From the NCBI GenBank assembly GCA_033391075.1, contig JAWPMV010000001.1:4464001-4528000 (forward strand): a stretch of DNA of 64,000 nucleotides. The letters are read 5' to 3'. Source of the DNA: Bacteroidia bacterium (GTDB lineage: Bacteria; Bacteroidota; Bacteroidia; J057). Below, one piece after another: positions 21,348-24,202 of this stretch (the stretch's first letter is position 1; every line of letters starts with the position of its first letter). The notes beneath the pieces are model-generated. The model did no database searches, was not told where the DNA came from, and was given only the letters and a program-made list of their open reading frames with translations. A program made the translations under genes and the position numbers.

Positions 21348-22193
21348 ATGGAATTTTTCAGGAATATAGTTAAGCACCTTAATAAGCCTTTCCCCGAGCA
21401 GAGTAGCAATTTTGGAGAGCCCAAAATTCTGGCTGCCCTCAGCTTATTTGTAGCCTTATTCCTTTTTGTATTCCAGCCTTTTGGTATTTCGACCATAGAA
21501 TCCAACAAATTCCTCATCTGCCTGGGATTTGGAGCCATGACCTTCCTGGGAAGCAGTCTGTATGAATTTATAGTTGGGAAGGTGCTGAAACTAAAGGGAG
21601 AGCTGGAAAAATGGACCCTGGGAAAATGGATGCTCAATAATCTGGGGATCATGCTCGTCATAAGCCTTGCAAACTTCCTTTTTGCCAGACTAGTCTTTTT
21701 TGGCTATATCCAGTGGGAGCTGTTTCCGGCCATGATGTACGGCACATTTATGATAGGGATCATCCCGATTTCCGTCCTGGGCGCATTTATCGTATGGCAG
21801 CAGGAAAAAAAGTATATAGGGATAGCTGAAAGTATGAATCAACAGCCCCTCTCATCTTCTTCACAGAAAGCTATCAATGAAAAGCATCTTTTCCAGATCC
21901 CACTCAGCAATATTCGCTATATACAAGGTTTACAAAACTATGTTAGCCTGGCTTATATAAATGAGGAAGGTCTATTAAAAAAGAAAACAGAACGAGCGAC
22001 CCTAAAACATATTCTGGATAATCTTTCAGACAGTTCAATCATTCGCTCTCATCGATCTTTTCTGGTCAATAGTTCCTACATCCTTTCTGCTTCCGGCAAT
22101 GCCCAGGGACTGCTACTTAGCCTTGCTGACTGTGATCGGGAGATTCCTGTTTCTCGGACCTATGTACCTACCTTTAGAGCAGAAATCGTATAA
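21348..22193 (+). CDS. Membrane-anchored LytTR-family transcriptional regulator
   Basis: 281 residues. Four hydrophobic segments span about residues 28-145 (ILAALSLFVALFLFVFQPFG, FLICLGFGAMTFLG, LGIMLVISLANFLFARLVFF, MMYGTFMIGIIPISVLGAFIV). A C-terminal LytTR DNA-binding domain follows at about 180-280, with IPLSNIRYIQGLQNYVSLAY and IIRSHRSFLVNSSYI. There is no receiver domain, so it probably senses membrane or envelope signals directly. A four-fold 20-bp direct repeat starts 8 bp after its stop codon, before the amidohydrolase gene, its probable target. Confidence 0.88.
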   Translation: MEFFRNIVKHLNKPFPEQSSNFGEPKILAALSLFVALFLFVFQPFGISTIESNKFLICLGFGAMTFLGSSLYEFIVGKVLKLKGELEKWTLGKWMLNNLGIMLVISLANFLFARLVFFGYIQWELFPAMMYGTFMIGIIPISVLGAFIVWQQEKKYIGIAESMNQQPLSSSSQKAINEKHLFQIPLSNIRYIQGLQNYVSLAYINEEGLLKKKTERATLKHILDNLSDSSIIRSHRSFLVNSSYILSASGNAQGLLLSLADCDREIPVSRTYVPTFRAEIV

Positions 22194-22200
22194 AACAGCT

Positions 22201-22280
22201 TTGTAATTCGTCCCACTGCCTTGCAAACAGTCACTTTGCCTTGTAATTCGTACCACTTCCCTCTCAGTCGTCACATCTTC
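22201..22280. promoter_or_regulatory. Four tandem 20-bp repeats, candidate LytTR binding array
   Basis: Four units begin at 22201, 22221, 22241 and 22261. Unit 1 (TTGTAATTCGTCCCACTGCC) and unit 3 (TTGTAATTCGTACCACTTCC) match in 18 of 20 positions. Units 2 and 4 keep the GT at positions 10-11 and the pyrimidine-rich end. A 20-bp step keeps the sites near two helical turns, as expected for LytTR proteins bound to direct repeats. Confidence 0.65.
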
Positions 22281-22281
22281 C

Positions 22282-22312
22282 TTGTCCACAGCAGTTTGAG
22301 CGCATAGTTTTG
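22282..22312 (+). promoter_or_regulatory. Promoter of the amidohydrolase gene
   Basis: TTG at 22282-22284 (-33) and TAGTTTTG at 22305-22312 (-7, TAnnTTTG) are 20 bp apart. The -33 element abuts the last 20-bp repeat. The -7 box covers an in-frame upstream ATG at 22310, which therefore cannot be the translation start. Confidence 0.6.
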
Positions 22313-22339: not shown

Positions 22340-23869
22340 ATGAAGCTCAAAAAAGTTCTAAAATACGTCCTGATCTTCCTTCTCCTGGGTAGCCTGATAC
22401 TCCTCTATCTCGCACAGCAAAATACAATCAGGATTTATGGGGGGAAAACAGAAATTGTGAATCATAGTGATTTTCAGATAGAGCAGAAATCCTTTTGCAT
22501 AGAGCATGTAAATCTCCTGGCTGAAGACGGAGAAAGTTTTATCTCCAATCAACGAATATGCATCGATAACGGAAAAATCGTTTCCGTGGATAGCAGTTTC
22601 CAGGCTCCTTCAGACTGGCCCACAATAGATGGTTCCGGAAAATACCTCATACCGGGTCTGATTGATTCACATGTGCACCTTTTCAAAAGTCAAAACGACC
22701 TTTTACTCTACCTGGCTACAGGAGTTACAGAAATCCGTGAAATGATCGGGGAAGAAGATCATTTGCAATGGCGTGAAGAAATTAAAGCAGGAAGACCCGG
22801 ACCTGATATGTTCATTGCCTCTCCCCGCCTGGGAAGTTTTGGTTTCATGGAAGGATGGTTTATGAAAGTTAGCCAGGGCTTCAACAATATCAGAGATGCC
22901 AAAGAAGCCGAAAGTTATGTCAATAGATACGCCGAACTAGGCTATGATGCAGTGAAGATTTATTGTTATCTCAATGAAGAAGCCTATGAAGCGGTCAATA
23001 AGTATGCGGTGGAAAAAGGAATGAAAGTGGTCGGACATATACCCTTTGACCTTGAGCTGGATGCTATATGGAATTCAAATCAAACTGAAATTGCCCATAT
23101 CGAAGAATTGATGAATGCTTTCCGCAGAGAATATGGACGATTTGAAACGCAGGAGGAGGCAGATGATTTTTTAGCCTATGTAGATCGGCGTAGCAGAGAG
23201 ATCGCTCCTAATCTCAAAGAAAACAGGATTTCAGTTACGACTACCATTTGGCTTACCCAAAGTTTCGTCAGACAGAAATTTGAATTGGAGAAAGTGCTCA
23301 AAGAAGTAGAACTCGCATATGAAAATCCGGGCATCAGTGAGTGGGATGAAAAAATTCCCGGAGGTCTGGGATGGTTGCCTCATATTAACCGCTATAAAAT
23401 GCCTGAAGGATTAACTGAAGGAGAAAAGGCAGGACAAAAGATTTGGTGGTATACCTATGGATATGCCTGTCAGCTCATCCTGGGAAGTCTGCATGAAGAA
23501 GGAGTGAGTATCATAGCCGGAACAGATGCAAACCTTCCTCCTACCGTTCCAGGCTTTTCCCTGCATAACGAACTACAAGCTATGCAAGAAGCAGGAATGT
23601 CACAGGCAGAAGTCCTGAGATCAGCTACAGCCATTCCCGCTCAATGGATGGGCAGTAATACGGGAGTCATAGCGGAGGGCTTCAAAGCCAATCTCTTATT
23701 ATTGGATCAAAATCCGCTGGCTGATATTTCTCATACCCAAAGTATAAACACGGTCATCCTCGATGGACGGATATACCCAAGAGCTCAGTTAGATGAAATA
23801 CTGAAAGCCGTAAAAGCAGCAACTGATGCAAGCAGGACAGAAGATATAAGTCGATTTTCTTCGGACTAA
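22340..23869 (+). CDS. Membrane-anchored imidazolonepropionase-like amidohydrolase
   Basis: 509 residues from the ATG at 22340; a start 30 bp earlier would lie within the promoter. An N-terminal membrane anchor (VLIFLLLGSLILLYLA) is followed by an amidohydrolase barrel. Metal-site motifs are DSHVHLF, the lysine of DAVKIY, GHIPFD, EIAHIEEL and GTDANLPP. Members hydrolyse cyclic amides, dipeptides or organophosphates; the substrate is not predictable. Control by the LytTR protein is inferred from the repeat array. A second exported relative lies at 43809-45302. Confidence 0.88.
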   Translation: MKLKKVLKYVLIFLLLGSLILLYLAQQNTIRIYGGKTEIVNHSDFQIEQKSFCIEHVNLLAEDGESFISNQRICIDNGKIVSVDSSFQAPSDWPTIDGSGKYLIPGLIDSHVHLFKSQNDLLLYLATGVTEIREMIGEEDHLQWREEIKAGRPGPDMFIASPRLGSFGFMEGWFMKVSQGFNNIRDAKEAESYVNRYAELGYDAVKIYCYLNEEAYEAVNKYAVEKGMKVVGHIPFDLELDAIWNSNQTEIAHIEELMNAFRREYGRFETQEEADDFLAYVDRRSREIAPNLKENRISVTTTIWLTQSFVRQKFELEKVLKEVELAYENPGISEWDEKIPGGLGWLPHINRYKMPEGLTEGEKAGQKIWWYTYGYACQLILGSLHEEGVSIIAGTDANLPPTVPGFSLHNELQAMQEAGMSQAEVLRSATAIPAQWMGSNTGVIAEGFKANLLLLDQNPLADISHTQSINTVILDGRIYPRAQLDEILKAVKAATDASRTEDISRFSSD

Positions 23870-24202
23870 AAAGTACCTACGGAAAGAAATAGATGCAGGA
23901 GAATTAAAGGAAACAGTATTTCCTCTTGCTTCTATTTTTTTCTATTAGAGAAACCTTCAAGTGCGTCAATATTAGGCATTATCCATAATACAACACATTG
24001 ACTTCCCGATTATTTAGCTGCCTATTATTCTGCATTTCAATTCTTTTTTATCCAGTCAATATATACACAGGTGATGGAAGATTTGGAGGAATAAGCACTC
24101 CTTTTAGCCAAACAAAATTGAGCAAAAAAACTGAGCCGCTATCGTATCAGATAGGGAAATGATTTGCCTCCTTCCTATATTGGGAATTGTAAACAATCAG
24201 AT
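23870..24202. other. 333-bp intergenic region without a gene
   Basis: No open frame with gene-like content is visible. The first part holds an imperfect long stem (GAAAGAAATAGATGCAGGAG pairing loosely with CTCTTGCTTCTATTTTTTTC, about 23880-23942) ending in a T-run, a possible terminator for the amidohydrolase. The rest is AT-rich with no clear promoter box. Confidence 0.4.

Follow-up and report, generated by a model that had tools for sequence, protein, structure and literature searches.

A membrane LytTR gene, a repeat array and an amidohydrolase gene

The window (the whole 64-kb stretch of DNA that was analysed) belongs to a genome of 9.49 Mb with 61 LytTR genes. One of these genes is separated by 146 bp from a gene for a membrane-anchored metal-dependent amidohydrolase, and the intergenic stretch contains four direct repeats and a promoter (Table 1). 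By hydropathy, the regulator has four transmembrane (TM) segments, at about residues 27-45, 57-75, 99-117 and 132-150, and its LytTR domain is C-terminal (residues 181-278; Pfam PF04397, 51 bits; cut-off 22.6). LytTR was its sole Pfam match, and no receiver domain was found. The protein therefore carries TM segments and a DNA-binding domain in one polypeptide, with neither receiver nor kinase, as a one-component transmembrane regulator does, and its initial classification as a receiver-less membrane LytTR protein holds. The HRSFLVN-type motif of the LytTR domain is kept across nine aligned relatives. An AlphaFold model of the regulator (two sequences) has four long helices and low confidence (pLDDT 48).

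Table 1. Features of the LytTR-amidohydrolase locus in the window
Feature	Position	Strand	Description
4-TM LytTR regulator gene	21348..22193	+	281 aa; Pfam LytTR, hydropathy, orthologues
Repeat unit 1	22201..22220	+	TTGTAATTCGTCCC + 6 bp; 20 bits, matrix from other target families
Repeat unit 2	22221..22240	+	TTGCAAACAGTCAC + 6 bp; 12 bits
Repeat unit 3	22241..22260	+	TTGTAATTCGTACC + 6 bp; 15 bits
Repeat unit 4 (weakest)	22261..22280	+	CTCTCAGTCGTCAC + 6 bp; 8 bits
-33 element	22281..22284	+	CTTG; in array phase, where the TTG of a fifth unit would stand
-7 element	22305..22312	+	TAGTTTTG (TAnnTTTG); 44 bp after the start of unit 4
Target gene	22340..23869	+	membrane-anchored metal-dependent amidohydrolase; Pfam Amidohydro_1, 59.8 bits

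The four units stand in perfect 20-bp phase and start 8 bp after the LytTR stop codon. Units 1 and 3 are identical at 18 of 20 positions, units 1 and 2 at 13, units 2 and 3 as well as units 1 and 4 at 11, and units 2 and 4 at 9. Unit 4 is the weakest by identity alone, yet it fits the cross-genome unit matrix. The -33 element comes after all four units, and the core of the last one ends 7 bp short of it. The preliminary description had already reported the four units and their starts, the 18 matches between units 1 and 3, the distance from the regulator gene and a promoter directly after the array (TTG, 20 bp, TAGTTTTG), and our recount gave the same figures, with the TTG at 22282-22284. The array region was the top self-match of the window (25/40 and 36/60 at lag 20; 28/40 at lag 40). 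With a matrix derived solely from the arrays of other, non-amidohydrolase targets, the four units scored 54.2 bits, against a maximum of 11.3 bits in 20 Mb of random Markov DNA (ten 2-Mb sequences), so that the array is not a product of chance.

The start codon of the amidohydrolase is probably the ATG at 22340. The protein has one N-terminal TM segment (residues 6-24 by hydropathy), which makes an envelope enzyme plausible, and an HxH motif and later His/Asp metal ligands are visible. A short imperfect 13-bp tandem repeat (CAAACAAAACTGAG, 24109-24136) was noticed in the gap between the amidohydrolase gene and an alpha/beta hydrolase gene.

The array is conserved at orthologous gene pairs

The preliminary description had read the locus as a membrane LytTR circuit controlling the amidohydrolase, a reading to be given up if the repeats were missing beside orthologues. 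We ran this comparison, and both orthologous loci have the repeats in the same promoter register. One comes from a different genus within the family (L032; LytTR 56% identical) and the other in a Eudoraea MAG (L070; LytTR 61%, amidohydrolase 63% identical). Each array has four units, with the third base of the unit 79, 59, 39 and 19 bp from the -33 TTG, apart from one unit shifted by 1 bp. The promoter that follows reads TTTG-N20-TAA(G/A)TTTG at these loci, with TTTG as the -33 element at both. The intergenic region of L032 measures 420 bp, and there the array is found at the amidohydrolase promoter, away from the end of the regulator gene; it therefore belongs to the target promoter rather than to the regulator's end. 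A Lysobacterales homologue of the amidohydrolase (42% identical) has neither a LytTR neighbour nor an array. The base at unit position 13 follows the order C, A, C, A along the array in the window (22201-22280), in L032 (2620-2699) and in L070 (3861-3940), and shows no such alternation in the DUF2306 loci described below.

The same motif follows distant membrane LytTR genes

The search of related genomes for the repeat, which had been proposed as a check, also returned arrays beside 4-TM LytTR genes that are less closely related and belong to several families of the phylum. A paralogue in the same genome (35% identical, C1:4072950) is followed by an array and then by a DUF2306-like membrane gene. 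The same succession of regulator relative, array of the same type and DUF2306-like gene was found in other families (L033, L071, L072 and L073). The ORF 5' of the LytTR gene in L072 (1144-1482) encodes repeated V(D/E)YESRAD peptide units. Overall, direct repeats of two to four units with a 20-bp period were present in about 50 loci, each unit consisting of the word TTGnnATTCRTC[A/C]C and six free bases. As far as sequence can tell, conservation of the repeats at orthologues and distant relatives supports the circuit first proposed for the amidohydrolase locus, but the family-wide motif with its interchangeable targets had been missed.

The promoter distance is also fixed. In 15 loci picked blind to the promoter, a -7 box agreeing with TAnnTTTG at 5/6 bases or more lay 43-44 bp past the start of the last unit in 15/15 cases, against a background of 1.6% per locus. 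When the last unit was chosen automatically, the same distance was obtained in all loci but L034, where the failure was technical. Lag-20 matches at L034 (1287) and at some other loci were rejected as simple repeats (GGTTGGCT...), and the genuine L034 array was detected by the unit matrix. The amidohydrolase loci have a clear TTTG at -33, and in most other loci this element is degenerate.

Within the window's own genome, two array loci stood out (E 3e-13 and 4e-13; third match, E 0.4), under a model that had been trained on both of them. These are the only two arrays in 9.5 Mb, one at the amidohydrolase target and one at the DUF2306-like target of the paralogue. Accordingly, 2 of the 61 LytTR genes have an array directly 3', both of the 4-TM type, and none of the receiver-type LytTR genes does. 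Upstream of the regulator gene the best array score was -15, versus 48.9 downstream, and we found no autoregulatory array there. Weak orphan matches (E 0.03 and up) were discarded as noise, the best of them being antisense to a coding sequence. When the genome was searched with the pattern of one unit, match counts stayed near control, and therefore only chained units are informative. The own 4-TM paralogues L042, L043, L044 and L045 have one or two unit-like words past the stop codon, possibly degenerate arrays before genes for exported proteins.

We then consider searches from DNA alone. The first model (R1) described the array without promoter or protein and was applied to 395 genomes of the class. 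It returned 14 sites, 12 of which lie on the same strand and 3' of a 4-TM LytTR gene, at no more than about 300 bp in eleven cases and at about 0.9 kb in the remaining one (G024). Among the sites outside the training set, 5/7 follow a 4-TM LytTR gene. The second model (R2) combined units and promoter and was applied to 395 genomes of the phylum and 399 of family f47. A same-strand LytTR gene ended -47 to +159 bp from the array at 37 of the 46 inspected sites, two of which were in the training set, while the chance rate of LytTR adjacency estimated from LytTR gene number is about 0.1%; these counts are not independent, because many of the species are related. The nine exceptions were mostly low-complexity or plain tandem repeats. 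Matches at L135, L140, L141 and L146 were rejected as low-complexity CACTTGTCACTCGTCACT runs without LytTR, and those at L148 and L186 as plain tandems without LytTR. The 20-bp tandem repeats of L186 (G932:C18:312323-312400; TTGACTTGGTAACAGTCACAA-like) recall the unit word, with no adjoining LytTR gene. Array-like sites without a neighbouring LytTR gene were found at L124 and L142.

A model of activation from the membrane

Taken together, we think it likely that the array is the operator of the adjoining membrane LytTR protein and that this protein activates the downstream envelope gene. The status of the array as an operator is well supported, whereas we infer binding, activation, dimer arrangement and signal. 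The regulator would remain in the inner membrane, and its cytoplasmic LytTR domains would bind next to one another on the 20-bp units, whose spacing of about two helical turns places them on one face of the DNA. An array of four units would accommodate two dimers, of which the C, A, C, A alternation at position 13 gives a hint, as it fits two pairs of units. The bound protein would probably contact RNA polymerase and turn on the envelope gene, given the fixed distance to the -7 box and the 7 bp between the last core and the -33 element. The signal would be read through the four-helix membrane domain. With arrays at this target and at the DUF2306-like target of the paralogue, and none before the regulator gene, the protein would act as a dedicated local switch, and having the operator close to the regulator gene would suit a protein retained in the membrane.

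Within the unit, about one helical turn separates the two conserved parts, TTG and TC[A/C]C. In the general picture of LytTR-DNA recognition, one domain reaches into neighbouring grooves, and the spacing would fit a single LytTR domain bound in this way. The 20-bp period of the array falls within the period of about 19-22 bp of LytTR direct-repeat operators. The units themselves are unlike known LytTR words: none of the window units matched the classical [TA][AC][CA]GTTN[AG][TG] with fewer than 2 mismatches, and none of seven described LytTR words recurs at 20-bp steps in the array. Therefore, we infer recognition by the regulator's domain from their association.

As to the sign of regulation, it is the promoter geometry that would point to activation, namely sites at a fixed distance upstream of the core promoter together with a weak -33 element. 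The degenerate -33 in most non-amidohydrolase loci would be expected where an activator compensates for it. At the amidohydrolase gene of the window, TTG-N20-TAGTTTTG is near consensus at both -33 and -7, and such a fairly complete promoter makes activator-independent basal transcription possible. A promoter that may fire unaided would also suit the opposite sign, in which the same regulator on the same operator represses the target until its membrane domain senses a ligand, much as the membrane LytTR protein CoxC represses through three direct repeats (PMC11347149). We judge repression unlikely. The CoxC repeats overlap the -35 element, whereas here, in 15/15 loci, the units keep a fixed distance and stand upstream of -33, which is degenerate in most of these loci, and the LRS and AgrA regulators activate from comparable upstream positions (PMC6193735, PMC4227749).

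The identity of the bound protein can be questioned as well. The genome has 61 LytTR genes and LytTR sites can resemble each other, so another LytTR protein might bind the array while the neighbouring membrane protein has other targets, and the orphan arrays at L124 and L142 would agree with this. We consider it quite improbable, since the array follows one membrane LytTR family across targets and taxonomic families, the receiver-type LytTR genes of the genome lack it, and arrays found from DNA alone point back to the same membrane LytTR family. Finally, there is next to no chance that the repeats are something other than a protein site (a tandem duplication that arose by chance, a mobile repeat, a terminator or the RNA leader of the target): they do stand directly after a stop codon, and Tandem Repeats Finder did not call the window array, its units being too diverged, but unit positions are conserved where spacers have diverged, 9.5 Mb hold only two arrays, the array is upstream of the promoter and therefore not in the leader, the RNA fold is weaker than that of shuffles (z +1.4) with no Rfam match, and the reading is refuted by a motif, period and promoter distance kept in unrelated loci.

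Relation to known LytTR systems

Earlier reports cover direct-repeat LytTR operators, membrane regulation by CoxC through three repeats, a 4-TM LytTR protein (HigX) and repeats at the LRS-like promoters of Bacteroides. The canonical LytTR operator is a pair of 9-bp repeats 10-13 bp apart (PMC11347149). The preliminary description called receiver-less membrane LytTR proteins poorly studied, which is partly outdated now that CoxC (2024) and HigX (2026) have been described. CoxC of Afipia carboxidovorans, an MHYT-LytTR membrane regulator, resembles the activator proposed here as a single-protein membrane LytTR acting on more than two direct repeats at a target promoter. It differs in its seven-TM MHYT sensor, whereas our regulator has four TM segments and no MHYT domain by Pfam, and in its RcoM-type repeat word, which is absent from the window array. 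In HigX of Caulobacter crescentus, LytTR comes after four TM helices, a periplasmic domain is absent and the targets are envelope-related (PMC13384398); HigX shares this layout and kind of target with the window regulator. By contrast, its ChIP motif is a spacerless inverted repeat with many scattered targets, and no gene-adjacent array has been reported for it.

In the Bacteroides LRS-like systems, the LytTR proteins contain TM segments and the promoter sequence is TGTA/TGTG-N19-TATCTTTG (Zou 2018, PMC6193735). Both these and LRS systems share with the window direct repeats about two turns apart just upstream of a promoter. However, an LRS pairs a soluble regulator with a separate membrane inhibitor and regulates its own operon through one repeat pair, with a 22-bp period in Bacteroides. 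In the window, sensor and regulator are one 4-TM protein, the next gene encodes the amidohydrolase, and the repeats are not upstream of the regulator's own promoter; arrays of this type follow the regulator gene, have up to four units with a 20-bp period, and use a different word. AgrA, BtsR, YpdB and ComE also have a LytTR domain and direct repeats upstream of activated promoters, but they are soluble two-component receiver proteins with one repeat pair and other consensus words.

The unit word, the four-unit 20-bp array, its fixed distance to -7, its place after the regulator gene and its exchangeable targets appear undescribed in the literature searched. That literature contained no description of the motif for Bacteroidota and no experimentally defined operator for a membrane LytTR protein of this phylum, only predicted repeats at Bacteroides LRS-like operons. 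Our comparisons suggest a widespread one-protein membrane-to-promoter switch in Bacteroidota, which are rich in LytTR genes. A motif with fixed promoter geometry turns regulators that are annotated but mute into predicted regulator-target pairs. It also makes testable how a membrane-bound regulator finds and activates a promoter, for which an operator adjoining the regulator gene may be an answer. The natural arrays of two to four units constitute a graded series for studies of cooperativity.

Apparent exchange of target genes

The targets include acyltransferase-3 (13), DUF2306-like proteins (10), a membrane family with one Rce1/CAAX-protease match (10), GT39/PMT_2-like proteins (7), the amidohydrolase (3), TPR proteins (2) and single others. 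Target classes were strongly clustered on the regulator tree, with 9 changes against a minimum of 8 and a shuffled mean of 28. The amidohydrolase clade nests among the DUF2306-type regulators, and for this reason regulator and array appear to have been kept through an exchange of the target. We lean towards a portable, phylum-wide one-protein switch, in which a 4-TM LytTR gene and an array of two to four units at a fixed 43-44 bp would be combined with swappable envelope-modifying targets, regulator and promoter module would travel together, and array length would range from one to two dimer sites.

The two-unit array without LytTR at L124 (1501-1592; G157:C6) lies ahead of a gene for an outer-membrane beta-barrel protein. 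Its product shares the stretch GGTHFWGHADF, recognized by eye, with that of the gene after DUF2306 in L104 (3132-4409; G024:C2), and a regulator of this kind may act on the L124 gene as a distant target.
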